Positions 1,733 to 17,998 of a stretch of DNA of 20,884 nucleotides are shown here, in pieces (the stretch's first letter is position 1; each line of letters starts with the position of its first letter). The notes under the pieces were generated by a model. It searched no databases, was not told where the DNA came from, and saw nothing but the letters and a program-made list of their open reading frames with translations. The DNA is from a virus. Both the position numbers and the translations under genes were made by a program. The stretch is taken from the IMG/VR virus record IMGVR_UViG_3300031759_000173, positions 1 through 20,884 of that record; one strand, given 5' to 3'.

Positions 1733-1882
1733 TCAAAAGCTGCGCCCTGCCGCTTCATGCGGCGGGTCATTCTCCGCGTCGGCATCGGCGCATGTGCGAC
1801 ACAGGACCAGATCGTCTCCGCAGAAGCCCTCGGACTCGGGAAATTCGGCTCCGCAATCTTGGCACGTCCTTATTTCGTCCAT
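1733..1882 (-). CDS. 49-residue zinc-ribbon micro-protein
   Basis: Begins ATG at 1882 with GGAG 8 bases upstream and ends TGA at 1733. It reads MDEIRTCQDCGAEFPE, with a second pair LCRTC at residues 28-31. The four cysteines (7, 10, 28, 31) form a compact CxxC-x17-CxxC zinc ribbon, followed by an acidic then basic tail. It is collinear with the small-gene operon. About 160 bases (1571-1732) separate it from the next gene; I see no convincing gene in them. Function unknown; nucleic-acid or protein binding is the usual role for such ribbons. Confidence 0.7.
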   Translation of the reverse strand: MDEIRTCQDCGAEFPESEGFCGDDLVLCRTCADADAENDPPHEAAGRSF

Positions 1883-1927
1883 TTCATCCTCTCCATCCCC
1901 TGTATCGCTGGGGGAGCGGATCGCAAC

Positions 1928-2143
1928 TCACTTCTCTCCAGGGAGGTTCCCACCATGCACTCTGACTTCCGCCGCCTGGATCGTTGAGCGCGCGGACAAC
2001 TGCACCACACACTGCTCCGCCGCCTCGCGTGAGGCGAACGGGCCGAAGGTTTCCAAATACTGCCCCCCGGCATTTGGATTCTGTCGTTTCTCGCGGTCGG
2101 AAATGCCGACCTGGCGCTGCTTCGTTTCGATTGTGAAATACAT
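1928..2143 (-). CDS. Small protein with GPFxSRxxAE motif (paralogue of the gene at 1391-1570)
   Basis: Seventy-one residues. The ATG at 2143 is chosen because of the GAGGAA site just upstream; the frame extends further but without a ribosome binding site and with non-coding-like composition. The central motif FGPFASREAAEQCV aligns with SGPYRSRARAEEAAI in the gene two downstream, and both finish with a strand (AAEVRVHG here). This suggests a small beta-alpha-beta fold duplicated within the operon. No known function recognised. Confidence 0.7.
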   Translation of the reverse strand: MYFTIETKQRQVGISDREKRQNPNAGGQYLETFGPFASREAAEQCVVQLSARSTIQAAEVRVHGGNLPGEK

Positions 2144-2199
2144 CGATTCCTCTTTTTTGGCCTCCTTCGCGCTGGCCAGGCGCCGCGTTGTTACGCGCG

Positions 2200-2322
2200 T
2201 CAGAATTTTCGAATCTTGCGTCCGGAGATCCGTACGAACTCCCCGCGATTGTCGCAGTAAACGGCGCGGATCTGACCGTCCGCACACATCCGCATTCCGA
2301 CCAACCATTCCGTGTTTTTCAC
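2200..2322 (-). CDS. 40-residue protein, GTG start
   Basis: GTG at 2322 with GGGAGG 6 bases upstream; the GTG overlaps the upstream stop as GTGA. The product begins VKNTEWLVGMRMCADGQ, has CDNRGEFVRI, and ends in a basic KIRKF tail. The pattern looks like a tiny beta-sheet protein. A longer frame from 2406 exists but duplicates the coding space of the next gene. Function unknown. Confidence 0.6.
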   Translation of the reverse strand: MKNTEWLVGMRMCADGQIRAVYCDNRGEFVRISGRKIRKF

Positions 2323-2519
2323 GCGGCCTCCCTTTCTGCGTCCTTCATCGCCGCTTCGGCGCAAGCAATCGCCGTGCGGGCACTCCACAACAATCTCGAT
2401 CTGCACTCCTGCGTTCGCTGCGAGTCTCCCGTGAGCCTATCGGCGCGCGCCCGTAGGCGGCGGGCCCGTGTTTGCCAGCGGGCGGCCTCGGTGGTGTAGC
2501 TGCGGGCGAGGAAGGTCAT
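2319..2519 (-). CDS. Small helical, Arg/Ala-rich protein
   Basis: Sixty-six residues from ATG 2519, preceded by AGGAG. Almost entirely predicted helix: FLARSYTTEAARWQTRARRL followed by alternating basic residues and alanines, with an acidic end (KDAEREAA). It overlaps both neighbours by 4 bases, so it is translationally coupled in the operon. Probably a small DNA-associated or protein-interacting helix bundle; no family recognised. Confidence 0.65.
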   Translation of the reverse strand: MTFLARSYTTEAARWQTRARRLRARADRLTGDSQRTQECRSRLLWSARTAIACAEAAMKDAEREAA

Positions 2520-2764
2520 GCCGGTATCTCCTGACAAAGAGGGCAATAATCGCTCAGCGGAGCGTCCACCCAGTTGTCGCCGTCGTGATAGCTGAGATCG
2601 TCTCCGTCGAGCGGCCCGCTCTCATACTGCTCGACAGTCAGTTCCGAGGCAGTGCAGCGATTCCAGTTGCGGGACATGAAACACTCCTCTTGGACGTGCC
2701 CGTCGTGCATTTCAGCGACGTGGATGTGCTCGTTGGAAAATCGGCGGACTTTATAATCGGGCAT
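2516..2764 (-). CDS. Hypothetical acidic protein with C-terminal CxxC
   Basis: Eighty-two residues from ATG 2764, with GGGAGG 8 bases upstream and the upstream stop sharing one base (TAATG). The N-terminus is basic (MPDYKVRRFSNEHIHVAEMH). The middle is strongly acidic (SGPLDGDDLSYHDGDNWVD), and the end reads DYCPLCQEIPA. The single CPLC pair plus nearby histidines could bind a metal. No family recognised. Confidence 0.7.
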   Translation of the reverse strand: MPDYKVRRFSNEHIHVAEMHDGHVQEECFMSRNWNRCTASELTVEQYESGPLDGDDLSYHDGDNWVDAPLSDYCPLCQEIPA

Positions 2765-3150
2765 TATGCAACCTCCCGATAATCCCTATAATCCAATTCC
2801 CACTGCATCGACGCGGCCGGCTTCCGCAGCGGCTCCGACGTATACACGTCCGCGATTGTGTAGTCCGCGAGCACCCGCGCCATGATCGCGGCGGCGGGCT
2901 CGAGGGCGGGGACAATCGCCGGCAGCCGGTCCACGTATGGATCGCGGTGGCGGCAGTTCGGGCACTCGAAGAGCAGGAACTCCTCGTCGCCCATCTCCCA
3001 GCAGAGATCGAGCAGCCGTGGTTCGCCGATCCAATGGCATACCGGGCACTCCCAGGTCGATTCCGGTTCCTCGGGCTCGGGCGGGTCGTACGCGCCGCAG
3101 TAGCGGTCGTACTGGTCGGTGGTGGCGCCGTCGGGCATGTTCCAGCTCAC
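2764..3150 (-). CDS. Zinc-ribbon protein, 128 residues, GTG start
   Basis: The GTG at 3150 is chosen over the ATG at 3138 because it has GGGGAGG 7 bases upstream and makes a GTGA overlap with the upstream stop. CPVC (residues 35-38) and CPNC (63-66) frame a typical zinc ribbon, preceded by an acidic Pro/Glu stretch (about 20-33). The C-terminal half is helical with a Tyr/Asp-rich end. Residues 70-95 look like a helix with scattered prolines. Function unknown; the ribbon suggests binding to nucleic acid or to a host protein. Confidence 0.7.
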   Translation of the reverse strand: MSWNMPDGATTDQYDRYCGAYDPPEPEEPESTWECPVCHWIGEPRLLDLCWEMGDEEFLLFECPNCRHRDPYVDRLPAIVPALEPAAAIMARVLADYTIADVYTSEPLRKPAASMQWELDYRDYREVA

Positions 3151-3478: not shown

Positions 3479-3585
3479 CGTGATCTCGCGCGGCCTTCGC
3501 CCGCGCCTGCGATTTTGGAGCGGGGGGTACGAGAATGCGAGCAGCAGCGCATTTCCTCCGCTCGCGCGAAGGCCCCCCGCGTAAG

Positions 3586-4236
3586 TTAGTCCGCCGTGGG
3601 CTGGGCGAAACCCCAGGTCTGCGCGCGCTTGCCGAGCTGGACGCGGTACAGTTTGGTCGGATTGAGCGGGGCGGCGACGAAGGGGTGCTGCCCCTTCTCG
3701 TGCCGGATCGACGCAAAGCCAGCGACGAAAATGCGATCATCGCTCTTGTCTTTGCTCGTGTAAACCTTGGCAGCGCGGATAATATGCGACTCGACCGCGA
3801 ACGTGCCAATCGGAAACTCCTCGACATCGCGAAAAGTAATGCCGCGCTCGGGGATAAGAGCCACATCGCCCTGGCGAATGATCTTGGGCAGGAGGGAGGG
3901 AGTGACGTCCCAGATGCGGCAGAGGGCCACCTCGACGCGGGCGTTGGTCGCGATTACGTTCACCGGGTGGGCAAACGCGTTCCCGTTCTCGTTGCGCCCG
4001 CACAGGAAATAATCCTTGCGCGTCCGCGTGTAGCGGCGCGGGTGGAAGTCGCTCTTGCGGACGCAGAGTACGAATAGCTGCTGTGCGCTGTCGTGGTCGC
4101 AAACCTCCACGTTTACCGCGCTCCCGCGCTGTTTCCGATCGGACTCTATGCCGACCTCGAAGGCTACCCCGTTCAGTTGCTCGATGATCGACTCCGTCCA
4201 CGTCGGGCCGTAGTCACTATATGCGTTACTCGTCAT
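3586..4236 (-). CDS. Hypothetical protein, 216 residues, first gene of the leftward unit
   Basis: ATG 4236 follows GGGAGG by 9 bases. The product begins MTSNAYSDYGPTWTESIIEQ. The C-terminal half has IIRQGDVALIPE and FASIRHEKGQHPFVAAP. RQGD(V/I) followed by a late His-rich GxHP segment and a terminal YRVxxxxR strand recur in phage-borne hypothetical proteins. I recognise no catalytic motif. It is the first gene left of the divergent control region, so it is probably expressed early with the downstream operon. The leader is shared with the next gene. Confidence 0.75.
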   Translation of the reverse strand: MTSNAYSDYGPTWTESIIEQLNGVAFEVGIESDRKQRGSAVNVEVCDHDSAQQLFVLCVRKSDFHPRRYTRTRKDYFLCGRNENGNAFAHPVNVIATNARVEVALCRIWDVTPSLLPKIIRQGDVALIPERGITFRDVEEFPIGTFAVESHIIRAAKVYTSKDKSDDRIFVAGFASIRHEKGQHPFVAAPLNPTKLYRVQLGKRAQTWGFAQPTAD

Positions 4237-4553: not shown

Positions 4554-4687
4554 AAAAGACGATCAAGAAGACGAAGCGATCTACAGCATCGTGCGAGATC
4601 TATGTCACCGTGCCCGGCATGGCGTGCCCGCTTTGCCGCGCGGCGATTAAGCCGGGTGTGCAGCATCGCTGCCGGAAGGAAACGTGA
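4550..4687 (+). CDS. 45-residue protein with CxxC...HxC zinc motif
   Basis: ATG 4550 after GGGGAA. A Lys/Thr-rich start (MKKTIKKTKRST) precedes VPGMACPLCRAAIKPGVQHR, followed by C. The zinc motif is CxxC-x9-HxC. The DNA for this motif is almost identical (68 of 69 bases) to that in the gene at 5265, so one is a recent copy of the other. It is coupled by overlap to both neighbours. Function unknown; proximity to the AcrVA2-like gene makes it a candidate accessory. Confidence 0.65.
   Translation: MKKTIKKTKRSTASCEIYVTVPGMACPLCRAAIKPGVQHRCRKET
4606..4674 (+). repeat. 69-bp direct repeat, copy A (zinc motif)
   Basis: Matches 5297-5365 in 68 of 69 bases; the single difference (C at 4623, T at 5314) changes Ala to Val. 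Both copies are read in the same frame. The flanks diverge on both sides. Confidence 0.9.
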
Positions 4688-5265: not shown

Positions 5266-5489
5266 TGCGATTCGAATTCGAAGGCAAGACGTATTCCACC
5301 GTGCCCGGCATGGTGTGCCCGCTTTGCCGCGCGGCGATTAAGCCGGGTGTGCAGCATCGCTGCCGAGAGGAGTGCGGAGTCCTAATATTCACCAGCGCGG
5401 AATTCGCGGGCGTGGAGATCGACGCGGCTGCCGGCACCGTGCGTGTCGCGTTCCTGCGCCGCGCTCCCGTGCAGCGGAGGATCGCGTGA
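5265..5489 (+). CDS. 74-residue protein with the duplicated CxxC...HxC zinc motif
   Basis: ATG 5265 with GGAAGGAGG immediately upstream; GTG 5262 is an alternative. It begins MRFEFEGKTYSTVPGMVCPL and continues with the same zinc motif as the 45-residue gene (CPLC, HRC), then adds a C-terminal part (FTSAEFAGVEIDAA, then VRVAFLRRAP) absent from the shorter one. It overlaps the AcrVA2-like start as GTGA, so the two are translationally coupled. Unknown function; the coupling makes a joint role with the anti-CRISPR homologue worth testing. Confidence 0.7.
   Translation: MRFEFEGKTYSTVPGMVCPLCRAAIKPGVQHRCREECGVLIFTSAEFAGVEIDAAAGTVRVAFLRRAPVQRRIA
5297..5365 (+). repeat. 69-bp direct repeat, copy B (zinc motif)
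   Basis: Second copy of 4606-4674, one mismatch, 691 bases downstream in the same orientation and frame. Confidence 0.9.
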
Positions 5490-7362: not shown

Positions 7363-9032
7363 GTGCCCGCTCCTTTCGCGTGGTCGCACTGCACGTAGCG
7401 GTGGCCGTCCCATCGCACACCTTTCCCGCGGCACTGCGGGCAATCTGGCGCGATATCGATTTCCGGCGCGCCCGGAGCGCGCGTGCGCTCGACCTGGCGC
7501 GTAGGCGGGATCGTGGCGCCGGGGATGGCCTGGCCGGCCGGGCAGCCGCATACGATTTCCTTCCCCTCCCACTTGTACTTTCCGCGGCCGTGGCACAGCT
7601 CGCAGGCCTCCGGGTGCGCGCGAAGATGTTTATCGCGTTTCGCCCGGGCGGCGTCGTCCGCGTTGCGCTGCGCGTCGGCTTGGTTGGCAAGATCCGCTTG
7701 CCGGCGCGCTTCGTCTTTTTTCGCCTGCTCCGCCTGCCACCACTCCTTGCGCACCTGGGGCGCCAGGTGCGTGCAGATCAGCCCCAGGGAATCTGTGCCC
7801 AGCCGCCATCTGCGGGTTACGATCAGCACGCGCAGCGAGTGGATGTTCGAATTCGTAACGGGTCCCATGCGCTTCGCCGTTTTCGCCACGAGCTGGTCGG
7901 TCACCTCCTGGCGCAGGGTTTTCGGGATGCCCGTTTTTTCGATCATCGCTTTGAGCGCGCGTAGGCTCGCGGGCGCGGCTTCCCCGGTCTCCGGAATCTC
8001 TGCCGCGTTTGGAAGCTCGGTTGCAGTTCGGCCCTCATCAGAAGGGTTTTCCGAAACGGACGCGCCGGACGCCAGTCCGGAGCAAGTTACCGGTAGCTGC
8101 TCCCCCCCAACTGACTGACTACTACTCTGCTCCTTTATCTCTACAGTGTTGGTAGTAGGAGTCTGTAGTCTGGACTGCAATAAGGGTGTGCCGGGCGTAC
8201 AAGTCGCGGATTCGGCTTGTACAGGGAAATCCGCCGGCGGCGCGGCCTGCTCGTGTACGGCGGCATTCGTCCCGTGTACAGGGGAAGGCACGGGGGCCAG
8301 GGTAAGTTCTAACTGCACCGACTTACTCCACTTAGCGGCTGCCTCTCTCTGCTTGCGCGGTTTGCACTTGACGCCAAGCGCCACGATGGCGTTATACTGT
8401 TCCTGATCGACCCGTTCGCGCGCTTGCGCGACGACAGCATTTATTTGATCGTCGCCCCAAACACTGAGCTTGGCGGCATACGGGATAAGTGTCTGTTTTC
8501 GCGCTTCATCGAGCGCATCGTAGTCGATATAAGGAAAAGCAGACAAGTTCCCGTGTACACGGGAACTTCTTTCCTCGAAAGTCCTTTGTTTCCGTGCGAG
8601 CGGAACATCGGATCGCAGCCCAACCCCGCCTCCGCCGTTCCGTCCCATGCGTTTCTCGCTTTCGCGCTCTCTGCAAAGGACCCCTTCCGTAACTCCGGCC
8701 GCCAACGTATTCAGCGCGTGCTTGAGTGAGACTCCGCGCTCTGGCGGCTTGCCGTCCTCCGGTTCCCGGGGCCACACGGCGGCGATCTCTGCCATGGTCA
8801 TAGGCTCGCCGTCGTCGTTCGTGGCCCACCTGGTTGGCGGATCGCGAAGGCTGCTGTTCTTCTTCACGATCCCGACCAATATATTCAGAGGGGTTTCTCC
8901 TCTGTTGGCTTGGTAGTGGACCAGCTCCGCCGGCTCTGGGTTCCAGAAGCCGATGCCCTTCCGCGGCGGCTGCTCCTCGCTCATCGATTTAATGAGCTTA
9001 GTTGTCGGCCCGTCTTCACGTTTCTCGCTCAT
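7359..9032 (-). CDS. Replication-initiator-like protein with internal putative origin
   Basis: 557 residues from ATG 9032 (ATGA overlap with the upstream stop). Residues about 10-150 look like a winged-helix DNA-binding domain (LNILVGIVKKNSSL; TMAEIAAVW; a helix ending TEGVLCRE). A low-complexity linker at about 235-300 is followed by helices and an Ala/Lys coiled coil at about 425-470. Two DnaJ-like zinc pairs end the protein: C477/C480/C495/C497 and C531/C534/C549 with H551. Architecture and neighbours suggest an initiator or helicase loader, comparable in layout to lambda O, whose gene contains the origin in its linker. GTAC-centred palindromes lie in the same part of this gene. The function is inferred; no named domain is certain. 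Confidence 0.6.
   Translation of the reverse strand: MSEKREDGPTTKLIKSMSEEQPPRKGIGFWNPEPAELVHYQANRGETPLNILVGIVKKNSSLRDPPTRWATNDDGEPMTMAEIAAVWPREPEDGKPPERGVSLKHALNTLAAGVTEGVLCRERESEKRMGRNGGGGVGLRSDVPLARKQRTFEERSSRVHGNLSAFPYIDYDALDEARKQTLIPYAAKLSVWGDDQINAVVAQARERVDQEQYNAIVALGVKCKPRKQREAAAKWSKSVQLELTLAPVPSPVHGTNAAVHEQAAPPADFPVQAESATCTPGTPLLQSRLQTPTTNTVEIKEQSSSQSVGGEQLPVTCSGLASGASVSENPSDEGRTATELPNAAEIPETGEAAPASLRALKAMIEKTGIPKTLRQEVTDQLVAKTAKRMGPVTNSNIHSLRVLIVTRRWRLGTDSLGLICTHLAPQVRKEWWQAEQAKKDEARRQADLANQADAQRNADDAARAKRDKHLRAHPEACELCHGRGKYKWEGKEIVCGCPAGQAIPGATIPPTRQVERTRAPGAPEIDIAPDCPQCRGKGVRWDGHRYVQCDHAKGAGT
8197..8286. repeat. Cluster of GTAC-centred sites in the linker of the replication gene (putative iterons)
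   Basis: GTACAAG (8197-8203) is inverted as CTTGTAC (8216-8222), which continues into AGGGAAA. TCGTGTACGG lies at 8251-8260, and GTCCCGTGTACAGGGGAA at 8269-8286, which differs from the 18-bp palindrome core at 8548-8565 by two bases. The coding region here is a low-complexity linker, so the DNA may be constrained more than the protein. Confidence 0.45.
8545..8568. promoter_or_regulatory. 24-bp perfect palindrome (protein-binding site, copy 1)
   Basis: AAGTTCCCGTGT followed by its exact complement in reverse. The inner 18 bases TTCCCGTGTACACGGGAA recur exactly at 10246-10263. Such long perfect dyads usually bind a dimeric protein; it sits inside the replication gene. Confidence 0.6.
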
Positions 9033-9208
9033 ACGCGCGCCGATCTCGCGCGCTGAACCTCGCGCGCCCGCCGCAGTTCGCGTATGCGCGCGGCCTCGCG
9101 TATCCCCGCCGCGCAATGGCACGGCTTCGTAGTGCCGTTCCCTCGATCGACTTTGCCGGTCCCGCCGCATGTCTGGCACGGGCTATCCCGGAATTCCCGC
9201 ACCGTCAT
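9029..9208 (-). CDS. DnaJ-type zinc-finger micro-protein
   Basis: Fifty-nine residues from ATG 9208. It begins MTVREFRDSPCQTCGGTGKV and contains CHC soon after: CxxCGGTGK and a CxC pair like the DnaJ cysteine-rich repeat, followed by an Arg-rich helix. It overlaps both neighbours by 4 bases. It may act with the zinc-tailed replication protein just downstream. Function unknown. Confidence 0.7.
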   Translation of the reverse strand: MTVREFRDSPCQTCGGTGKVDRGNGTTKPCHCAAGIREAARIRELRRAREVQRARSARV

Positions 9209-9801
9209 AAAGCCCCCCTTCCCGCGCGCGCCGAACGCGCTTTCGGCTGCACCAGCTCCGCCGCGATCTGCCGGCGGACCTCGCGCAACAGCCCCGTCAC
9301 GTTGGGGCGCCTGGCGTTGTCGCACCACTCGCGGATCGCGTCCACCGGCGCCGCGCACGTGGTGCAGAGATCCGGCGTCTCCGACCATCCGCAGCCGTTG
9401 GCGCACGCGTCAAGCTGCGTGCATCCGCACACGCGGCAACGCGCCAGACCTTGGCGATCGCGCCGCACCTTGTATACACCAAGGAACGCTTGTGCCCTTG
9501 GCTTCGGCTTTTTCATAGTTTCCTCCTTTAAAACCCATTCCAACTCCGCGATAGCGCGGCACGCGAGCAAGTGCTCCTCGTCCGCGATCCGCAGACTGCG
9601 CACCGCTTCGGCGAACACGTCCGGACGCGGTTCGACCATTGCTCTTATTCGCTCTTTGATGCGCGCGAATCTCGCCAGCGAATCGCGATAGGCCGCGCGC
9701 CGGCATTCGAGGCGCGCGCGGATCTCCGCGGCGGTCCGGACGCGGCTCTCCGGTCCCGCGTTATCGGGGGCTGGCTGCGGCGCAACTGAGTGTGCGGGCA
9801 T
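9205..9801 (-). CDS. Two-part protein with internal in-frame start: helical N-half and zinc-finger C-half
   Basis: 198 residues from ATG 9801 (GGGAG 8 bases upstream). Residues 30-95 are amphipathic helices (TAAEIRARLECRRAAYRDSL and following). At residue 96 a second ATG (9516) carries a perfect AAAGGAGG 5 bases upstream and in the same frame, giving a separate 103-residue product. The C-half holds a cysteine-rich finger (C122, C125, C127, C133, C137, C146, C149; RVCGCT...GCGW...CTTC), a motif common in phage zinc proteins. It appears to be two ancestral genes fused by loss of a stop, or a deliberate dual product. First gene of the leftward replication operon. Confidence 0.7.
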   Translation of the reverse strand: MPAHSVAPQPAPDNAGPESRVRTAAEIRARLECRRAAYRDSLARFARIKERIRAMVEPRPDVFAEAVRSLRIADEEHLLACRAIAELEWVLKEETMKKPKPRAQAFLGVYKVRRDRQGLARCRVCGCTQLDACANGCGWSETPDLCTTCAAPVDAIREWCDNARRPNVTGLLREVRRQIAAELVQPKARSARAGRGAL

Positions 9802-10173
9802 CGGTCGTCTCCCAGGGCAGGAAGACTTCGGGTACCGGCCGCGCCCTGAGTGTCTGGCGACACCATGCGGCCGGCCCGAATCCTGTACTACATCACCGCA
9901 ACCCTGGCCTGGGCTACAGCGAAGGAACCACACTAGCACGGTCTTCCGCGATTGTGCAAATGCGTTTGCGGGCGTGCTATATTGGCCCATAGAAATTGTT
10001 CGGGCCGGGCGAACTGGTCTCCCGGCTGAGAATCAACTTTCGGCGGCGGCGCGTTCCGTATGCGCGATCTTAGACGCGCCGCTTCGTTTCAATTCCGTGT
10101 CACTCTGACAGCTTACCTCCCGTACAGTTCTGCAAACCCCCCGAAAACAGTTAGGAAATTTACGAGGTTTCGC

Positions 10174-10200
10174 TTGACGTTCGTTCCGCTGTGATACAAT
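10174..10200 (+). promoter_or_regulatory. Rightward promoter with extended -10
   Basis: TTGACG at 10174-10179 and TACAAT at 10195-10200, spaced 15 bases, with TGA immediately before TACAAT making an extended -10 (TGATACAAT). Transcription would start near 10207. The spacer is short; the extended -10 may compensate. The palindrome at 10245 lies about 40 bases inside the transcript. Confidence 0.55.
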
Positions 10201-10207
10201 CTCCATC

Positions 10208-10312
10208 GTGACCCAGCGCGGCCGAAGACCGGCCCGCATAGTCAATTCCCGTGTACACGGGAATGGACTCGCATCCGCCAACACCGCTATTAGTATTGTT
10301 TCGTACATATAA
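10208..10312 (+). other. Possible leaderless 34-residue reading frame
   Basis: A GTG lies exactly where the promoter predicts the transcript start. The frame reads VTQRGRRPARIVNSRVHGNG and continues 14 residues to TAA. The palindrome is read in the same frame (SRVHGN) as in the replication gene. The basic start resembles that of small DNA-binding proteins, but there is no ribosome binding site or other support. It may be a broken gene or chance. Confidence 0.25.
10245..10264. promoter_or_regulatory. 20-bp perfect palindrome (protein-binding site, copy 2)
   Basis: ATTCCCGTGTACACGGGAAT; the inner 18 bases equal those at 8548-8565 inside the replication gene. Downstream of the promoter at 10174, this is a good position for a roadblock or autoregulatory operator bound by the replication protein or another dimer. 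Confidence 0.6.
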
Positions 10313-10437
10313 ATCCGCGAATCGCGCGCCCGCGCGTGCCATGGCCCCCGCAGTGCTTGCCCTGTAAACTAGTGCGATTGTAGTAGCCACCACGGGTGGT
10401 ATCGCGGGTATACATCCGCGGCGCACACTTAGGATGT

Positions 10438-10854
10438 ATGGTTCCAGTCGAGACACACGCCGCGGAATTCGATGAGTTCGCACGCCGCAAGCGCGCGCTC
10501 GACGATGCCTTAGCTCCCTTTAAGTCCGAGATCACGTGGTGCGAAAAGCAGCGCGAAACGATCCTTTCGTGGTATCCCGATTCCATCCTGCCGCCGGGCA
10601 AAACCAGCGTCGGCCAGGGAAAGGAGTTCGATGTCCTAATTTCAATGCGCGACAACGCGCGCCGCGTAACCGTCTCCGGCAAGCGCAAGCTGCGGACACT
10701 GTGGGGCGCGGCGAACTTCCTGCAGAAAATCCTTGTCCAACTGAAAGATCTCCCCGATCCCAAAGACCCCACCGGTCTGTATACCGAGGAGCAGCGCACC
10801 GGGCCGCGTCATCTCAGTCCCGTTCCCCGCGCTATCGCAGTGGTCACGTCGTAG
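10438..10854 (+). CDS. Hypothetical protein, 138 residues, coiled-coil start
   Basis: ATG 10438 has AGGA 4 bases upstream; the frame extends back to 10396 without support. Residues 8-45 are helical and charged (EFDEFARRKRALDDALAPF), followed by a WCEKQRETILSWYPDS motif, a beta-rich segment, and a helical end (AANFLQKILVQL). The helical-then-strand layout resembles small phage early proteins, but I cannot assign a family. It is the first convincing gene after the promoter at 10174. Confidence 0.65.
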   Translation: MVPVETHAAEFDEFARRKRALDDALAPFKSEITWCEKQRETILSWYPDSILPPGKTSVGQGKEFDVLISMRDNARRVTVSGKRKLRTLWGAANFLQKILVQLKDLPDPKDPTGLYTEEQRTGPRHLSPVPRAIAVVTS

Positions 10855-10934
10855 CCGTCCCCAAATCGGCTTGGGAAGATGCACCTGAAAACAGCCTGGC
10901 GGGACGGGCTCTGAAACTATTCCGGCTTCCAACA

Positions 10935-11303
10935 ATGACACCAGAACTGCGCGCGAATGACGAACGCTTGCACGACCGCGTGCCCGTAATGTGCGGCGAG
11001 TGGTGCATAGAATTGGCCGGCCCCGAGCGTAGAGCAATGCTGTTGAGATCGCCGAACGTGCGCGAGGTGCGGCGCCACAAATCGGGCGAACTGTTCCAGC
11101 TCGAAGTGACGACGCAAGGCAACGACGAGCGGATGCCCGCGCGGCTCGGCAACCCGCGGCGCTATTCGCACGACCACGAGACCGACGACAACCCCGCGCG
11201 GAATTGGATGCTGCGCCATCTGTTCGGCGGCCGCGATATCTACCAGCGGCCGGCGCTCGATTGCATCACGACTGGCTCGCGACCGAATCCTACGGCTCGC
11301 TGA
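10935..11303 (+). CDS. Hypothetical protein, 122 residues
   Basis: The frame is open well upstream. ATG 10935 is the first ATG after the previous gene, though no clear Shine-Dalgarno precedes it, so the start is uncertain. The product has a beta-rich front (VPVMCGEWCIELAGPERRAM) and an Arg/His/Asp-rich back (RYSHDHETDDNPARNWMLRH). Codon use matches its neighbours. No family or function recognised. Confidence 0.55.
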   Translation: MTPELRANDERLHDRVPVMCGEWCIELAGPERRAMLLRSPNVREVRRHKSGELFQLEVTTQGNDERMPARLGNPRRYSHDHETDDNPARNWMLRHLFGGRDIYQRPALDCITTGSRPNPTAR

Positions 11304-11324
11304 GAGGCCCCCCAATCCATGCCG

Positions 11325-11362
11325 CCCCGGCCTCACTCGTCAGGGTTTGAGGCGGCGGGGGC
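11325..11362 (+). terminator. GC-rich hairpin after the gene ending at 11303
   Basis: CCCCG GCCTCA pairs with TGAGGC ... CGGGG across a 12-base loop with a two-base bulge, followed by only three T residues. It sits between convergent genes, as a terminator should, but the weak T-run makes it uncertain. Confidence 0.4.
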
Positions 11363-11370
11363 TTTCCCTC

Positions 11371-11392
11371 ATACTGCACATCCGTGCAGTAT
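11371..11392. promoter_or_regulatory. Perfect inverted repeat ATACTGCAC-ATCC-GTGCAGTAT
   Basis: Nine-base perfect arms with a four-base loop in a 258-bp gap between convergent genes. No T-run follows on either strand, so a protein-binding site is as likely as a terminator. Confidence 0.5.
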
Positions 11393-11509
11393 CGTGGACC
11401 ACATGGCTGCCTACGATTTTGTTGGGGGAACTTGCTGAATCTTCAAGGGGTTGGCACCGTGGGGAGCGGCCAACCCCCTTGGAAAACAGATGGGTCTCGA
11501 AGCAGTGTT

Positions 11510-11529
11510 AAGTATGGTATACCATACTT
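11510..11529. promoter_or_regulatory. 20-bp perfect palindrome with GntR-like core
   Basis: AAGTATGGTATACCATACTT. The TGGTATACCA core resembles operators of FadR-type GntR regulators. It lies about 30 bases beyond the stop of the leftward HTH gene, in a gap between convergent genes where an operator is unexpected. Confidence 0.5.
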
Positions 11530-11561
11530 CGGACATCGGCGACAACGTCTGTCGAGAGTGG

Positions 11562-12044
11562 CTATAGCTCTTCGAGCGACCGGCGGCGCACGTACCAACT
11601 GCGGATCTTGATCGCCTCCAGTCGACAGCTCTTGATCATCTTGCGCAGATGCGATTGAGGCAGGCCCCAATACGCTTCCGCTTCCGCGAGCGTGAGCCAG
11701 CCCTTATCCTTGACCGATGCCGGCGGCGTGCGAATCGCGGCCACGAGCTGCTCGATAAAGTTCACCGGCGCGGCGCTCATCGATGTCAGCGCGGTGCTGG
11801 CGGCCGGCGCTTCCGGTTCCGGGCTGCCCGGCACCACGAATGCGGCAGACCGGTTCTGATCCGCCAGCTTTCTAATGTCTATCGGATTATAGACGGCGGC
11901 CGGCGGGCGCTTGGGCACCTGCCTGGAGGCCTGCTGAATCAATCCGCGAGCGGCCATTCGTTCGATGCTTTTCTCCGAACAGCGGAGCAGCGCGGCGGCT
12001 TCCTTCTTCGTCCACCAATCGGAATAATCGGGCGTTGGTTGCAT
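11562..12044 (-). CDS. Tandem helix-turn-helix DNA-binding protein
   Basis: 160 residues from ATG 12044. Two excisionase/MerR-type HTH segments are joined by a Pro/Ala linker: residues 9-62 (DWWTKKEAAALLRCSEKSIE) and 115-160 (GWLTLAEAEAYWGLPQSHLR). The ATG has almost no leader and no ribosome binding site, so translation may be leaderless. It diverges from the LuxR-type HTH gene at 12116 across a 30-bp dyad. Probably a transcriptional regulator or a recombination directionality factor; the double HTH suits binding paired or repeated sites. Confidence 0.75.
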   Translation of the reverse strand: MQPTPDYSDWWTKKEAAALLRCSEKSIERMAARGLIQQASRQVPKRPPAAVYNPIDIRKLADQNRSAAFVVPGSPEPEAPAASTALTSMSAAPVNFIEQLVAAIRTPPASVKDKGWLTLAEAEAYWGLPQSHLRKMIKSCRLEAIKIRSWYVRRRSLEEL

Positions 12045-12070
12045 ATAAGACAAGTGTATCAGACTCAATA

Positions 12071-12100
12071 GACAGATTCCGGACACGTGTCGGAACTGTC
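12071..12100. promoter_or_regulatory. 30-bp imperfect dyad between divergent regulators (operator)
   Basis: GACA-ga-TTCCG-GACAC faces GTGTC-GGAA-c-TGTC: nearly symmetric over 30 bases, centred on CACGTG. It lies 27 bases upstream of the leftward HTH start and 15 bases upstream of the rightward HTH start, so one protein bound here could control both. Confidence 0.65.
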
Positions 12101-12115
12101 CGAAGTGCAGAAAAC

Positions 12116-12334
12116 GTGAACCACCTCGCTCCCCGCGAAATCGAGATTGCCGGCCTCGTAGCGAAATCCTTGTCGAACAAAACCATCGCGTTCCAGCTCG
12201 CGATCTCGCAAGAGACGGTGCATTCGTTGCTCACGAATTCCTACCGCCGGCTGGAGATCTCGAAGCTCGACCACCCGCGCGTGGCGCTGGCGCTCTGGTA
12301 CATCGCGTACCGCAGTGGGATGGTGGGAGTGTGA
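12116..12334 (+). CDS. LuxR/GerE-type HTH protein, 72 residues
   Basis: GTG 12116 gives a stand-alone GerE domain: LAPREIEIAGLVAKSLSNKT (residues 4-23), the recognition helix SQETVHSLLTNSYRRLEI (31-48), and HPRVALALWYIAY. No receiver or sensor domain is present. An upstream TTG at 12035 would run across the dyad and is less likely. It probably binds DNA as a dimer and regulates the late or lysis genes that follow, since its stop overlaps the next start as GTGA. The target site, perhaps 12071-12100, is inference. Confidence 0.75.
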   Translation: MNHLAPREIEIAGLVAKSLSNKTIAFQLAISQETVHSLLTNSYRRLEISKLDHPRVALALWYIAYRSGMVGV

Positions 12335-12591
12335 CTCCCGTGGCGCGCGCACCCGCGTTCGTCGCGCGGCCGTCGGCGCTTCCGCAGATCGACCCGCCCG
12401 CAGAGCTGCGGCGGTCTGTCGCCGAGGCGAGTCTAGACGACGTGATGCGCGAGCAATTCGAGTGGCTGCTCTACGTGCGAACCGATAAGCGCGCGGCGCC
12501 GGCGGATGTCCACCGGCTGGAACTTTTGACGAAACTGCTGCTTTTGCCGTTCGCCGGCCCGAAAACGAAAGCGAGAAAAACGAAATGCTGA
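12331..12591 (+). CDS. Hypothetical protein, 86 residues, GTG start
   Basis: GTG 12331 overlaps the regulator stop (GTGA) with GGGAG close upstream. The N-terminus is Ala/Pro-rich. Residues 28-75 form two helices (DVMREQFEWLLYVRTDKRAA, then HRLELLTKLLLLPF), and the end is basic (KTKARKTKC). No family recognised. Tight coupling to the LuxR-type gene suggests co-expression. Confidence 0.65.
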   Translation: MTPVARAPAFVARPSALPQIDPPAELRRSVAEASLDDVMREQFEWLLYVRTDKRAAPADVHRLELLTKLLLLPFAGPKTKARKTKC

Positions 12592-12692
12592 TCCTCTTAA
12601 TCCTGGTCCTGCTCCTTTGCGGCGGCGGCTTCGGCTACTGGCAGCATGGCTACAATGGCGGCGGCATCGGCTTCGGGCGGCTCGGCTGGTAG
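12585..12692 (+). CDS. 35-residue membrane micro-protein
   Basis: ATG 12585 overlaps the end of the previous gene by 7 bases. MLILLILVLLLCGGGFGYWQ is one hydrophobic segment followed by a Gly/Tyr-rich tail ending FGRLGW. It resembles the start of the small Leu/Gly-rich membrane proteins annotated DUF3309 but lacks their second hydrophobic stretch. It may belong to the membrane part of the lysis cassette, which follows directly. Confidence 0.55.
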   Translation: MLILLILVLLLCGGGFGYWQHGYNGGGIGFGRLGW

Positions 12693-12697
12693 CAACG

Positions 12698-13216
12698 ATG
12701 CCTGCAGATGATGCCGGATGGACGCTCGAAACCTTGCGCGTGCACGTGCAGCAAATGCTTGATGGTTACACTCTGCGCAACGACGACCGCTTCGCCGCTG
12801 CGGCGGCGACCATCCTGCTGTCCAGAGAATCGCTCGATGCCCAGATCCTCGCGCAGAAACAAGCCGTGGATATCGCGCTGCAAGCGGCCGACCGCGCCGT
12901 GAGCAAAGCGGAGTCGGCGACGGAGAAACGATTCGACTCGGTAAACGAGTTCCGCGCCGCGCTGAACGACACCGCCCGTCTGCAGATGCCGCGCGCCGAG
13001 ATCGAGGCGCTCTTCAAAGGCCTCACGGACAAGATGGTCACCGGACTCCAAGCGACGGATGCGCGCATCATCGCATTGGGGACGCGAGTCACGGAACAGC
13101 GAAGCGAGCGCACCGGAATGGAAAGCGGCTGGGGCTATGCCGTCGGCGCGATCGGCGTGGTGGTAGCTATCATCTCGGTTGTGGCCGCGGTGTTCTTCCG
13201 GGTGAAGGGCTTGTGA
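12698..13216 (+). CDS. Phage membrane protein with coiled coil and C-terminal TM (lysis-region protein)
   Basis: 172 residues from ATG 12698. Residues 15-135 are helical with heptad-like Ala/Glu/Lys (VDIALQAADRAVSKAESATE, then VNEFRAALNDTARLQMPRAE). One transmembrane segment lies near the C-terminus (about 146-166). This design, helices with an MPRAE(I/A)E...F motif and a terminal TM, recurs in phages next to endolysins; it may be a holin-associated or anchoring protein. It overlaps the endolysin start as GTGA. Exact role unproven. Confidence 0.75.
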   Translation: MPADDAGWTLETLRVHVQQMLDGYTLRNDDRFAAAAATILLSRESLDAQILAQKQAVDIALQAADRAVSKAESATEKRFDSVNEFRAALNDTARLQMPRAEIEALFKGLTDKMVTGLQATDARIIALGTRVTEQRSERTGMESGWGYAVGAIGVVVAIISVVAAVFFRVKGL

Positions 13217-13677
13217 GCAACTTTTACCTTGACGTAATCCGCAACGACCCGCGCTTCAACTCTCCCATCGAATGCCGCGACGTGGACCTGCTGGAGCCCG
13301 CCACACACGCCGCTGTGGCCGGGATTATTCGGGACGCGTTCGACGTCGGCGTCGATCTGTTCGTGACGGAGACGTATCGCTCGGCCGCGCGGCAGCAGCT
13401 CCTGTTCGCGGAACACGCGACACAACTGCGCAGGGTCGGCGTGCATCACTTCGGCCTGGCCTGCGATTTTGCCAAGCTGATCGACGGCAAAGCCTCGTGG
13501 GCTGGCGATTGGGCGTTCCTTGGCCGGCTGGCCGCGAAGTACGGAATGATCGGCGGCATCGACTGGGGCAAGCCTGGCGTCGTTCACGACTGGGTGGACC
13601 CGGATCACGTGCAGCGATGTACGGTGGAGCAACAAGCCGCGCTGTTCGCCGGCAAGTGGTATCCGGAGACGGCGTGA
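13213..13677 (+). CDS. M15-family peptidase endolysin (L,D/D,D-peptidase)
   Basis: 154 residues from GTG 13213. The zinc-peptidase M15 motifs are visible: TYRS (54-57), HHFGLACDF (78-86) with a metal-binding His and Asp, and HDWVDPDHVQ (125-134) with the second His. The family cleaves the stem peptide of peptidoglycan. No signal peptide, so export would need a holin. It lies between the membrane protein and a small lipoprotein, the classic lysis order. Length fits M15 phage endolysins. Confidence 0.85.
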   Translation: MSNFYLDVIRNDPRFNSPIECRDVDLLEPATHAAVAGIIRDAFDVGVDLFVTETYRSAARQQLLFAEHATQLRRVGVHHFGLACDFAKLIDGKASWAGDWAFLGRLAAKYGMIGGIDWGKPGVVHDWVDPDHVQRCTVEQQAALFAGKWYPETA

Positions 13678-13865
13678 AGCTCGCGCTTGTGTTCGCGTGC
13701 GGGCTTGTGGTATTCGGCTGCGGAACGCGCCACTGGCAACGCCGATACAAGGAACTGTTCCGCATAGGCCCGCCCGCCGAGGTGCATTTCAACTTCTGCG
13801 ATACGTGCCGCATCCAGGATTCGCGTTCGCCCGGGTGCCAGGCCTGGTGCGCGAACGCTCAATAA
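13674..13865 (+). CDS. Small lipoprotein in the lysis cassette (possible o-spanin analogue)
   Basis: 63 residues from GTG 13674, overlapping the endolysin stop, with GGAG upstream. VKLALVFACGLVVFGCG is a signal peptide with a lipobox-like end (VFG-C16); a second Cys at 9 lies inside the hydrophobic core. The mature part is short with four more cysteines (CDTC, C, C). Position directly after the endolysin and lipoprotein type suggest an outer-membrane spanin component, implying a Gram-negative host. This is inference from layout; no partner i-spanin is obvious apart from the upstream coiled-coil TM protein. Confidence 0.6.
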   Translation: MKLALVFACGLVVFGCGTRHWQRRYKELFRIGPPAEVHFNFCDTCRIQDSRSPGCQAWCANAQ

Positions 13866-13870
13866 CGATT

Positions 13871-14128
13871 ATGGACACGCTCACTTACAAAAACGTCACC
13901 AACGGCCAGGTGCAAGCCATGCTGGTCAAGATGGAAGCCGACCACGACATCGTGGTCACTCCGAATGCCGACGGCAGCTATGCCTTCGCGGGCGACGGAA
14001 TCGTGGCGACTGCGACATACGACGCGCCCAGCTCCGTGCTCACCGTCGACGTCTCCAGGCACCCCGGCATTCCGTTTTTCATGCACGTGATGAACGGCAA
14101 AATCAAATTCGCGCTGAGCCAAAGCTAG
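13871..14128 (+). CDS. Hypothetical small beta-rich protein
   Basis: 85 residues from ATG 13871. It reads MDTLTYKNVTNGQVQAMLVK, then alternating strands (YAFAGDGIVATATYD, VLTVDVSRHP), and ends IPFFMHVMNGKIKFALSQS. A short helix followed by four strands and a (P)FF motif is common in small phage proteins near lysis genes. No function known. The Shine-Dalgarno is weak. Confidence 0.65.
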   Translation: MDTLTYKNVTNGQVQAMLVKMEADHDIVVTPNADGSYAFAGDGIVATATYDAPSSVLTVDVSRHPGIPFFMHVMNGKIKFALSQS

Positions 14129-14157
14129 GCCGCGCAAGAAACAAGGACACCGAACGT

Positions 14158-14586
14158 ATGAGTTTCAAATCGCTTTTTATCAAGATCACCGCGGACGCCG
14201 CGAAGTTTCTCGGCATCGCGTCGAAGATCGACACGGTGGCCGAGCCCATCGTGCTTCCCATTCTGGGCCCCGCCGCGGCCGGGCTGCTCGCGCTGATCGG
14301 CAACGCCATCAACGTGGCGGAGAACGCCATCGCCAGCGTGGAAGCGGGCATCACGAAGAAGGCCACGGCCACCGCGATCATCGCGGCGAATCTGCCGCTG
14401 CTCCCGTCCATCGTCTCCGCATTCGGCGGAGGCGTGACGCTGAGCCCGAAGGCCGCGGCGGCTCTTTCAACCGCTATCGACGCGGCCGTGGCGGTCAACA
14501 ACGCGCTGCCGGGCATCCTCGACAATCTGACGCCGGCATCCGCTGTTCCCCCGCCTGTCGCTGTCGCGGCCGTTCCTGTCGCGTAG
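14158..14586 (+). CDS. Hydrophobic Ala-rich protein, possible holin-like
   Basis: 142 residues from ATG 14158. A basic amphipathic start (MSFKSLFIKITADAAKFLGI) leads to several moderately hydrophobic Ala/Gly/Ile segments (VLPILGPAAAGLLALIGNAI; ATAIIAANLPLLPSIVSAFG) and an Ala/Pro/Val tail. No strongly hydrophobic TM is certain. Related phage proteins beginning with a basic amphipathic helix and Pro/Gly-rich hydrophobic middles are sometimes called holin-like. The role is a guess from position after the lysis genes. Confidence 0.6.
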   Translation: MSFKSLFIKITADAAKFLGIASKIDTVAEPIVLPILGPAAAGLLALIGNAINVAENAIASVEAGITKKATATAIIAANLPLLPSIVSAFGGGVTLSPKAAAALSTAIDAAVAVNNALPGILDNLTPASAVPPPVAVAAVPVA

Positions 14587-14588
14587 CT

Positions 14589-14927
14589 TTACGAGGCAGG
14601 CGCTGCGGGCGGCGTCGCTGCGGGCGTGTTGGCTACGACTGCGGCGGCCAGCGTGGCCGCGTTGGTTTGGAGCTGAGTCGCGAGCGCGGCCATGGCTACG
14701 GGATCGACTGTGTTGCCGATCTGCGTAGCGAGGTTCGTCAGCAGCGTCTCCGCGGCTGCCTCTGCGTTCGTCTCTGCGGTAACACCGGCAGTGAGGGCGG
14801 TGAGGTCAAACATGATGGTCGTTTCTCCTTTGGTCAGTGCCGCGAGGGCGGCGTCGATGCGGTCGAATCTTGGGCCCAGTGCGGCGGCGACAGCCGACAC
14901 GATACGGGGTATAAGGTTCCAGGCCAC
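14589..14927 (-). CDS. Ala/Thr-rich helical phage protein on the opposite strand, with internal start
   Basis: The frame from GTG 14927 encodes 112 residues. Residues 1-35 (VAWNLIPRIVSAVAAALGPR, then FDRIDAALAALTKGE) look like a short coiled coil. At 14813 an in-frame ATG preceded by AAAGGAG (11-base spacing) could start a 74-residue product (MFDLTALTAGVTAETNAEAA...), of a kind frequent in phages with repeated Ala-rich helices and a NTPA...P tail. The long start keeps coding-like sequence; the short one has the better ribosome binding site. It is convergent with the gene ending at 14586, two bases away. Confidence 0.6.
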   Translation of the reverse strand: MAWNLIPRIVSAVAAALGPRFDRIDAALAALTKGETTIMFDLTALTAGVTAETNAEAAAETLLTNLATQIGNTVDPVAMAALATQLQTNAATLAAAVVANTPAATPPAAPAS

Positions 14928-14951
14928 TGGCTACGATTCTACTCCCCGCAA

Positions 14952-15548
14952 ATGAAAATAGCCATCTACGCGCGCGTCTCGACCGTGCGGCAGGAAAACG
15001 ATATGCAGCTCACGCCGCTGCGGGAATTCGCCGCGCGCATGCAGTGGGACGCCGTCGAGTATCTGGAGAAGGAATCGAGCGTGAAGGTCCGTCCGGTCTT
15101 CGAACGGCTGATGGCCGACGCGCGGTTGAAGAAGTTCGAGCTGATCCTCGTTTGGAAGATCGATCGCTTCGCGCGATCGATAAAGCAGTTCATCGACTCC
15201 GTTTTGATTCTGGACGGCGTCGGCGTCACGTTGCAGAGCCTCACTCAAAATGTCTGCTCGAACAAAAACGATCCCATGGGGCGTTTCGTCCTCGATCTGT
15301 TTGCTCTTCTCGCTCAGTTGGAGCGCGCTATCATTGTGGAGCGCGTCCGCGCGGGTGTGGCGGAAGCGCAGAGGCGCGGCAAGCTCTGCGGCCGCCCGGT
15401 GAAAATCTTCAACCGCGAACGCGCCCGCAAACTGCGCAAAGAGGGAATGAGCTGGCGCAAAATTGCGGCCGACGTGGGCGTCCCGTTCTCGACGGTCCGC
15501 GACGAGCTGGGGCGTGTGCGAAAAGCCTCCCGGAAAATCGTGAAATAG
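14952..15548 (+). CDS. Small serine recombinase (resolvase/invertase family)
   Basis: 198 residues from ATG 14952. Catalytic domain: YARVST with nucleophile Ser10 and Arg8, then KIDRFARS (69-76) with the conserved D71, R72 and R75, and the long E-helix region (LDLFALLAQLERAIIVERVR). A C-terminal HTH_7-like domain follows (GRPVKIF...GMSWRKIAADVGVPFSTVRDEL, about 148-187). The length is that of Tn3 resolvase/Pin invertase, not of large serine integrases. It could invert a tail-fibre segment, resolve dimers, or integrate the phage. No obvious paired inversion sites are seen in this window. A terminator follows. Confidence 0.85.
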   Translation: MKIAIYARVSTVRQENDMQLTPLREFAARMQWDAVEYLEKESSVKVRPVFERLMADARLKKFELILVWKIDRFARSIKQFIDSVLILDGVGVTLQSLTQNVCSNKNDPMGRFVLDLFALLAQLERAIIVERVRAGVAEAQRRGKLCGRPVKIFNRERARKLRKEGMSWRKIAADVGVPFSTVRDELGRVRKASRKIVK

Positions 15549-15586
15549 ACGTTGCAAACACGCGGCTTGAGTCGCGCGATTTGGGC

Positions 15587-15619
15587 GTGCGAAAACCATT
15601 AGTTTTTCGCACAGTTTTT
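15587..15619 (+). terminator. Rho-independent terminator after the recombinase
   Basis: GTGCGAAAA (15587-15595) pairs perfectly with TTTTCGCAC (15604-15612) across an eight-base loop, followed by AGTTTTTG. It lies 39 bases after the recombinase stop. Confidence 0.7.
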
Positions 15620-15724
15620 GTCCGTAACGTCAACAAAACGCACGCCTGACGGCGCGGCGGCGCGCGTTCGGCCCCGTCCCAACCGCACCGAACGTGCAAC
15701 TTACCCCCCGGCACCCCGGAGATT

Positions 15725-15949
15725 TCACGCCGGCCGATTGTGCTCGTTGATCGCGATGGACGCGTTGGCCCACATGATCGCGTTCTGAAGATGCGTAATC
15801 GCAAGCGCCTTCTCGCGCGACTCGGGGCAGCAGTCGTTGATTATCATCGCGATTTCCCGCGCGTTTTCGCGGATCATCTCGTAGCGTTTCGCCTGGTCGC
15901 CGAAAGGCGCGTGGTAGGTAAACAAATTGTCGATCTGTTTTTGATCCAT
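15725..15949 (-). CDS. acb2: Acb2/Tad1-type cyclic-nucleotide sponge (anti-CBASS)
   Basis: 74 residues from ATG 15949. The family signature is complete: FTYHAP (10-15), DQ (18-19), RYEMIR (22-27), PESREKALA (42-50), then THLQNAIMWANASIA (52-66) and NE. The length matches the family (Acb2/Tad1 hairpin domain). Acb2 forms a hexamer that binds CBASS cyclic di- and trinucleotides, and Tad1-type members bind Thoeris signals, so effectors are not activated. An in-frame start at 16000 would add 17 atypical residues. Its ATG shares CATG with the start of the ParB-like gene on the other strand. Family call very likely; ligand not determinable from sequence. Confidence 0.9.
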   Translation of the reverse strand: MDQKQIDNLFTYHAPFGDQAKRYEMIRENAREIAMIINDCCPESREKALAITHLQNAIMWANASIAINEHNRPA

Positions 15950-16697
15950 GCCTAAGTCTAAGCCCGCTCCAGACCCGTTGCGCATCGACCCGCTCCACAT
16001 CGAGTGGTGGCCGGTGGACCGCCCCGTGCCCTACGGAAAAAACCCGCGCCTGCCTTCGGATCGCGCGGTCGGCAAAGTAGCCGCATCGATAAAAGAATTC
16101 GGCTGGCGGCAGTGCATCGTGGTGGACGCCGACGGCGTGATTGTCGCGGGCCACAAACGCCAGCTCGCGGCGAAGCTGCTGGACCTGGCCGTGGTGCCCG
16201 TTCACGTGGCGAAGGACCTCACGCCTGCGCAGGCGAAGGCGTACCGATTGATGGACAATCGCGCGCAAGAGGACAGCGAGTGGGATCTCGACTTGCTCGC
16301 GAGCGAGATGGGCGAATTGGCCGCGCTGGAAATGGATCTGCCCAAGCTTACCGGTTTCGAGCAGGCGGAAATAATCGAGTTCCTGAAGGCGAGCGCGGGC
16401 GTTCCCGAGGATCTCGGCGGCCCTCCGGATTCCGTCGAAGAAAACGCGGCGGAATTGCAGGACATGAAAGACCTTCGCAAGAAGGGCAATGCGGCTATCC
16501 AGTCCAAGACGGACACCGAGCGGTACCTCGTGATCGTGTTTCCGTCCCGAGAGGCCAAGGAAGCGAAGCTCTCCGCGATGGGCGTTTCACCGAGCGAGCG
16601 CTACCTGAGCGCGGGTTCCGTGAGGCTGCAATATCTCGGCGGCAACATCACCCATGGCGAAGCGGCTCCCCTCAACAAATCCGGCGCAACCGGATAA
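15948..16697 (+). CDS. ParB-like (ParB/Srx fold) nuclease-domain protein, IbrB-like
   Basis: 249 residues from ATG 15948. Residues 17-115 form the ParB N-terminal fold: VDRPVPYGKNPRLPSDRAV, then VIVAGHKRQLAAKLL with the GHxR variant of the ParB nucleotide-binding box, then TPAQAKAYRLMDNRAQED. Phage proteins with this box are common near terminases. No methyltransferase domain follows, unlike many relatives; the C-terminus is a separate alpha/beta unit (TERYLVIVFPSREAKEAKLS). The next gene is a PAPS-reductase-like protein, overlapping by 44 bases, the same pairing as IbrB-IbrA. No Shine-Dalgarno is seen. Confidence 0.8.
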   Translation: MPKSKPAPDPLRIDPLHIEWWPVDRPVPYGKNPRLPSDRAVGKVAASIKEFGWRQCIVVDADGVIVAGHKRQLAAKLLDLAVVPVHVAKDLTPAQAKAYRLMDNRAQEDSEWDLDLLASEMGELAALEMDLPKLTGFEQAEIIEFLKASAGVPEDLGGPPDSVEENAAELQDMKDLRKKGNAAIQSKTDTERYLVIVFPSREAKEAKLSAMGVSPSERYLSAGSVRLQYLGGNITHGEAAPLNKSGATG

Positions 16698-17655: not shown

Positions 17656-17774
17656 CGGCCCCCCGCGAGCGCGAGGATCGCGTTGAGATGCGCGACGGCG
17701 GGCGCGACAATCGAGTGGACATATAGGCCGATGGCGAGCGTGGCCGGAAACGCGAGAACGGTAAAGGCGTTCAT
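17652..17774 (-). CDS. 40-residue membrane micro-protein
   Basis: ATG 17774 overlaps the upstream stop (ATGA), and its TGA overlaps the ASCH start (ATGA). MNAFTVLAFPATLAIGLYVH then an Ala/Leu-rich tail to LALAGGR gives a hydrophobic, possibly membrane-spanning peptide. It is too short for family recognition; the two exact overlaps and sensible codon use support a real gene. Confidence 0.55.
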   Translation of the reverse strand: MNAFTVLAFPATLAIGLYVHSIVAPAVAHLNAILALAGGR

Positions 17775-17998
17775 GCTGCCCGCCTCCCGGCAATCATCTT
17801 GACGTAGGATGCGCGCCACACCTGCTTGCGGCCGATTTTGCGGCCGTGGACGATATCGCCGCGCTCGATGCGATGATAGACGGTCGCGCGATTGATGTCA
17901 AGGGCGCTGGCGAACTGCTTGGCGTCCATCTGCTGTGACTCCGGAATGGAAGTCGGGACGTGACGGCGGCGTGTAATACTGCTCATTAGGTTGGACAT
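17771..17998 (-). CDS. Small HTH DNA-binding protein (excisionase-like)
   Basis: 75 residues from ATG 17998 with GGAG 8 bases upstream. An Arg/Ser-rich start (MSNLMSSITRRRHVP) is followed by a helix-turn-helix MDAKQFASALDINRATVYHR and the wing IERGDIVHGRKIGRKQVWRAS, as in HTH_17 excisionase/MerR-like binders. It heads a leftward trio with the micro-membrane and ASCH genes and probably autoregulates or regulates the divergent terminase side. The target is unknown. Confidence 0.75.
   Translation of the reverse strand: MSNLMSSITRRRHVPTSIPESQQMDAKQFASALDINRATVYHRIERGDIVHGRKIGRKQVWRASYVKMIAGRRAA

Follow-up and report, generated by a model that had tools for sequence, protein, structure and literature searches.

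The cluster of GACA/TGTC half-sites at positions 12071–12107 of the window, by which we mean the whole 20,884-base virus record IMGVR_UViG_3300031759_000173 analyzed here, is in our assessment probably an autoregulatory operator of the tandem-HTH protein that is encoded leftward of it. We infer this from four features that we computed from the sequence, namely, the anatomy of the repeats, the link between the cluster and the tandem-HTH gene in two divergent phages, a match to the operator of the Streptomyces regulator BldC, and the two HTH_17 domains of the protein itself. What is said about regulators in uncultured phages is for the most part guesswork; in the present case, a candidate site, a likely protein, and a solved analogue (the BldC–DNA complex) coincide, and control of the tandem-HTH gene is thus directly testable, as footprinting together with a small set of point mutations would be decisive. 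If true, this would show that a phage protein with two domains can use recognition of the BldC type, and would provide a rule for finding such sites elsewhere, namely, TGTC direct repeats beside an HTH_17 gene.

The window is identical over 8000–16000 to a second record, IMGVR_UViG_3300032677_000072 (G001, 39,643 bases), and we refer to the two combined as phage A (42,678 bases). Both records are fragments and phage A is incomplete; the same dyad is present in each of them, and the two copies are therefore not independent evidence. The first bases of G001 (G001:1–131) are a near-copy (99%) of window positions 3481–3611, which is an assembly flaw, and sequence comparison did not find the left end of the window at the right end of G001. 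The second, independent phage is IMGVR_UViG_3300044710_000137 (G003, 84,545 bases), which was reached through L174, a relative of the window’s endolysin. Phage A and G003 are the only two independent genomes in which we found the tandem-HTH gene, and this is the main weakness of the analysis. The features discussed below are collected in Table 1.

Table 1. Positions of the half-site groups and neighboring genes in the window, with the basis for each assignment.
Feature	Position	Strand	Basis
Putative operator cluster (“dyad”)	12071–12107		Only spot in 42.7 kb with at least four GACA/TGTC within 40 bp
BldC-type tandem 9-bp repeat, CACTTCGGACAGTTCCGACA	12088–12107	−	17/20 identity to BldC whiI-opt
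Left half, GACA(g)ATTC(c)GGACA, a similar unit that is longer by two bases (period of 11 bp)	12071–12085	+	Sequence reading, direct-repeat listing
Fifth GACA, near the start codon of the leftward gene	12049–12052		Half-site list
Downstream half-site group: GACA 11532, GACA 11541 (9-bp period), TGTC 11550	11525–11553		Half-site list, tetramer test, direct-repeat listing
Tandem-HTH regulator, 160 aa, two HTH_17 domains	11562–12044	−	PF12728, E 1.4e-13; ATG at 12044
Stand-alone LuxR/GerE-type HTH protein, 72 aa, GTG start	12116–12334	+	PF00196, E 2.3e-10
86-aa protein, start overlapping the end of the GerE gene	12331–12591	+	ORF list; no family match
35-aa hydrophobic peptide	12585–12692	+	Translation
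VanY/M15-like endolysin	13213–13677	+	phrog_465, E 1.8e-8; PF02557 (VanY) below cut-off; three relatives at 48–68%

The first-pass annotation had placed the dyad between a leftward tandem-HTH gene and a rightward LuxR-type HTH gene leading to lysis, and the domain matches to PF12728 and PF00196 support both genes. The rightward gene indeed heads a run of small genes that contains the VanY/M15-like endolysin, with a 172-aa protein lying between the 35-aa hydrophobic peptide and the endolysin. Among phage protein families, the tandem-HTH protein resembles excisionases and MerR-like proteins, most strongly phrog_66 (E 1.7e-8). A consensus scan found no sigma-70-type promoter in 11000–13300 or 8000–12400. 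Phage A encodes a second GerE domain beyond TerL, and three GerE domains above the cut-off are found in G003, such that stand-alone GerE proteins recur in both phages independently of the dyad. Further small ORFs with a GerE/LuxR-type HTH were noted in both phages, at 1575–3320 of L200 (from G003) and at 2978–3295 of L009.

The dyad itself, at 12071–12100, reads GACAG-A-TTCCG-G-ACAC / GTGT-CGGAA-CTGTC. Its arms pair at 14 of 14 positions only when A12076 and G12082 of the left arm are skipped, and the only gapless perfect palindrome that it contains is the 10 bp of GACACGTGTC at 12082–12091, which occurs once in the window. When the window was scanned for inverted repeats with gaps allowed, the dyad ranked third with a score of 22. 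Three centers reach at least 22, whereas 60 dinucleotide shuffles had 0.28 such centers on average and never more than 2. The inverted repeat is thus real and exceeds chance, yet it is less regular than first described, and “near-perfect” over 30 bp overstates a gapped structure with a 10-bp gapless core. The two centers that outscore it are TTCCCGTGTACACGGGAA palindromes at 8545–8568 (24 bp, perfect) and 10245–10264 (20 bp, perfect), to which an imperfect copy at 8269–8286 can be added. Two of these palindromes lie inside a leftward 606-aa ORF, and they were not found in L009 or in the G003 pieces; they could be operators of another regulator.

Four half-sites make up the dyad (GACA at 12071 and 12082, and TGTC at 12088 and 12097), the left pair being spaced 11 bp apart and the right pair 9 bp apart, with the pairs facing each other. 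The two “bulges” account for the 2 bp by which the left spacing exceeds the right one, and so the element is better read as two facing head-to-tail tandem repeats.

A cluster of four such half-sites recurs in G003, at the corresponding gene. Two HTH_17 domains lie in one reading frame of this genome, and the encoded homologue of the window’s tandem-HTH protein is 35% identical to it by tblastn over 161 columns (42% in the alignment). This homologue is surrounded by leftward ORFs, and a tyrosine integrase gene in the same direction lies upstream of it at a distance of about 0.9 kb; no GerE or lysis gene adjoins it. Phage A (42.7 kb) and G003 (84.5 kb) each contain a single cluster of at least four GACA/TGTC within 40 bp, in both cases at the start of the tandem-HTH gene, with the G003 cluster overlapping the start of the homologue. 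As 100 dinucleotide shuffles also yield some such clusters (mean 0.14 for phage A and 0.31 for G003, with maxima of 1 and 2, respectively), it is the shared location and not the count that carries weight. In addition, three half-sites are found just past the tandem-HTH stop codon in both phages, with the two groups that bracket the gene being about 530–560 bp apart in each.

Across the four gene flanks (71–76 bases each), GACA/TGTC ranks first of the 136 tetramer classes; its Poisson p-values multiply to 1.9e-8 for the upstream flanks and to about 6e-13 for all four, compared to about 2e-5 over all flanks for the next class. We note that these p-values are rough, as they are based on whole-genome frequencies that ignore non-coding composition, and GACA/TGTC had been spotted by eye beforehand. 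Direct comparison of the flanks gave a divided result: the best match of the window’s intergenic region in all of G003 is the 3′ flank of the homologue (score 26, next 25), and that 3′ flank, compared to the whole of phage A, in turn matches the dyad best (26, with 22 for the runner-up), whereas the other two comparisons were best elsewhere, with the window’s downstream flank matching G003 77925 (33) and the upstream flank of the G003 gene matching window position 4356 (27). TGTC direct repeats with a period of 8–11 bp show no excess as such, with three in phage A and seven in G003 compared to 3.2 and 7.3 in shuffles, and it is all three of those in phage A and two of the seven in G003 that stand beside the tandem-HTH gene, the latter with an 8-bp period.

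Among the characterized systems closest to this one is BldC, a Streptomyces HTH_17 protein which binds 9-bp direct repeats and contacts bases through Lys26 and Arg30 (PMC5859096). The operator in its crystal structure, whiI-opt, was optimised by its authors and contains CAATTCGGACAATTCGGACA (PMC5859096). The minus strand of the dyad is identical to whiI-opt at 17 of 20 positions in the same register, with the next best site in phage A reaching 14, and a value of 17 was attained by none of 400 shuffled genomes, 5000 shuffled intergenic regions, or 5000 permuted repeat units, in a comparison that is post hoc in that it was made after reading of the BldC paper. Using an 18-base version of whiI-opt, the dyad is still the best site at 15/18, a value that was attained in 9 of 200 shuffled genomes. 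Against the natural whiI sequence, it matches at 15/22, tied with two other sites. The window’s downstream half-site group resembles whiI-opt weakly (13/20, equalled in 7 of 300 shuffles), and the repeats flanking the G003 gene reach 11/20 and 10/20 (equalled in 74 and 244 of 300 shuffles, respectively).

An AlphaFold2 model of the tandem-HTH protein built from the two phage sequences alone is weak (pLDDT 64, pTM 0.37), and has a winged helix at its N-terminus. When this model was submitted to Foldseek, there was no match at E < 0.001; ranked by E-value, the MerR protein PbrR691 came first (E 0.034, probability 0.87), followed by the BldC–whiI DNA complex 6amk (E 0.047, probability 1.00, TMt 0.74–0.78), with Pukovnik Xis (4j2n, probability 1.00) in sixth and eighth positions. 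When the PDB was searched with a sequence profile, Pukovnik Xis was recovered at E 0.22 and BldC was not recovered at E 1. The base-contacting Lys26 and Arg30 of BldC align with a lysine and an arginine in the N-terminal domain of each phage protein, while the C-terminal HTH has no equivalents of these residues in either protein (S, and K or D, at these positions).

The likeness to BldC (PMC5859096) comprises a winged helix of the HTH_17/MerR-like kind, head-to-tail repeats of 9 bp that include the C-G contacted by Arg30 (present here at 12088–12107), and equivalents of Lys26 and Arg30 in the N-terminal but not the C-terminal phage domain. The two systems differ in that BldC is a 68-aa single-domain bacterial regulator and the phage protein is a 160-aa protein with two domains, and in that two tandem units face each other in the phage, with the AATT core only partly kept (PMC5859096). 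Given its length of 160 aa and its two HTH_17 domains, we do not class the phage protein as a BldC. A literature search of limited depth found no description of a BldC-like operator combined with a tandem-HTH_17 phage protein.

Taking these observations together, the recognition unit would consist of TGTC and a few further bases in head-to-tail repeats with a period of 9–11 bp, a BldC/Xis-type arrangement, with two such units facing each other, and the presence of two domains suggests that one tandem-HTH chain could contact two repeats. The tandem-HTH protein probably binds the dyad and would thereby limit its own expression. The last base of the dyad (12100) lies 16 bp ahead of the GerE start codon, and so binding would probably also affect the rightward GerE–lysis transcript, making control of the GerE–lysis genes by the dyad plausible. 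The second half-site group, past the stop codon, would complete the bracketing of the tandem-HTH gene. A more elaborate version of this mechanism, in which a chain with two BldC-like domains acts through the bracketing operators to form a DNA loop over the gene, thereby adjusting its own abundance as well as, by way of the divergent GerE gene, when lysis takes place, and additionally governs excision in relatives that have an integrase, is speculative, and we consider it unlikely in this full form.

The alternative that survives best is that the main role of the tandem-HTH protein is that of a recombination directionality factor (excisionase), with the repeats as its architectural sites and autoregulation as a secondary function, as in RdfS or Apl of phage 186. 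We regard this as a serious possibility to which we would nevertheless assign less than even chances, and we note that it is compatible with the operator reading and does not exclude it. Excisionase PHROGs are among the matches of the protein, and the tyrosine integrase of G003 is close to the gene and in the same direction. Moreover, the joint best 20-base match to whiI-opt in G003 (15/20, tied with 57631) lies about 260 bp upstream of this integrase, in a 9-bp-type repeat that was equalled in 1 of 300 shuffles of that stretch only, which is a local control. Against this, searches of G000 and G001 (both fragments) turned up no tyrosine integrase, and no attP was found. The combination of the G003 integrase and a candidate BldC-type site upstream of it is hinting at an Apl/RdfS-like excisionase-regulator, by analogy with those two proteins, each of which has a promoter site together with a site in the integrase region (PMC7498355, PMC11963761).

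The parallels are partial. Apl is a small HTH-motif phage protein with direct-repeat operators of 10–11 bp spacing in a regulatory region, as here, and it has its sites at attP and in the region separating pR from pL, whereas the half-sites of phage A bracket the protein’s own gene (PMC7498355). RdfS of ICEMlSymR7A is a group-17-type wHTH protein that binds its own promoter and attP, to which the candidate site near the G003 integrase offers a counterpart; it differs in having a unique oligomerising N-terminal helix and is reported to have no apparent consensus motif (PMC11963761). The repressors of Cluster A mycobacteriophages likewise carry two DNA-binding domains in one chain, but act through asymmetric 13-mer stoperators located genome-wide, whereas the half-site cluster of phage A is beside the gene only (PMC9283540). 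A separate 75-aa excisionase-like HTH_17 protein is encoded at 17771–17998 on the minus strand of the window (phrog_9834, E 7.2e-9), and the ORF at 14943–15548 resembles a small serine recombinase when its sequence is read by eye.

The first-pass annotation had also likened the region to a lysogeny or late-gene switch built from non-cI regulators, with the dyad as a switch site bound by both the tandem-HTH and the GerE proteins. A regulatory-looking site tied to a non-cI regulator is indeed what we find, and no HTH_3 (cI-type) domain exceeds the cut-off in either G001 or G003 (window positions 1–3035 lying outside G001), with one sub-cut-off match in G001 (E 0.009). GerE-type domains bind DNA as a family, and the dyad does lie between the two start codons, ending close to that of the GerE gene. 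However, the part of the claim that makes one site common to both proteins is not supported, as the cluster follows the tandem-HTH gene into G003, where the GerE domains above the cut-off are about 8 kb from the genome’s sole cluster (one sub-cut-off GerE match falls inside the G003 tandem-HTH gene itself). There is no such cluster at any of the three G003 GerE domains or at the second GerE domain of phage A, and an informal look recognised no GerE-type box. The sequence comparisons thus lend no support to a link of GerE itself to the dyad, and we consider a site shared by both proteins to be distinctly unlikely.

Another way to account for the inverted repeats is that they act as RNA, forming a hairpin in the leader through which translation of the leftward gene would be controlled. 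The minus strand of the dyad is predicted to fold at −15.3 kcal mol–1 (z −2.86), and the equivalent strand in G003 gives z −4.55; the plus strands also fold, with z of −2.33 and −5.06, and an inverted protein site folds by construction. A leader hairpin would, in addition, leave unexplained why the direct repeats keep their register, why the site matches that of BldC, and why there are copies beyond the stop codon, and we consider this explanation improbable. Rfam gave no match in the window. Finally, a parS-like or other ParB site, as might be considered from the CACGTG center and from the ParB/methylase-like gene at 15948–16697, was rejected and is given almost no credence: CACGTG occurs nine times in the window, and the best window match to the parS consensus is 11/16 and is located elsewhere, at 1240.

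Further relatives of the two regulators were sought in several collections. When viral contigs were searched with the tandem-HTH protein, either by itself or as an alignment, only phage A and G003 were found, and the search with the GerE protein found phage A only. Among eight chosen records searched for HTH_17, four gave matches, and two domains in the same stretch were found only in G001 and G003. The window’s tandem-HTH protein had no match at E 0.01 in phage and plasmid records; the G003 protein matched one phage, Shambre1 (two records, 34% identity over 32% of the query, E 0.05), and had no match in plasmid records. Six chosen genomes gave no matches, and in two 396-genome samples, evidently of the same group, 6 of 396 gave weak partial matches, to the C-terminal half. 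Relatives identified through TerL (the best 80 of 304 genome loci and the best 80 of 595 viral loci) contained no tandem-HTH or GerE tblastn match at E ≤ 1 in their flanks, which extended to at most 10 kb and were in many cases shorter. Among the endolysin relatives L174–L176, no notable GerE match stands beside the endolysin, and a tandem-HTH match in L176 (E 0.004 over 40 aa) was taken as chance.

Several other repeats in the window are recorded here. The palindrome AAGTATGGTATACCATACTT at 11510–11529 abuts the downstream half-site group, with two further inverted repeats close by, at 11371–11392 and 11447–11477. Farther to the left, an 88-nt duplication (4593–4680 and 5284–5371, 91% identical) gives two different ORFs the same VPGMxCPLCRAAIKPGVQHRC stretch.
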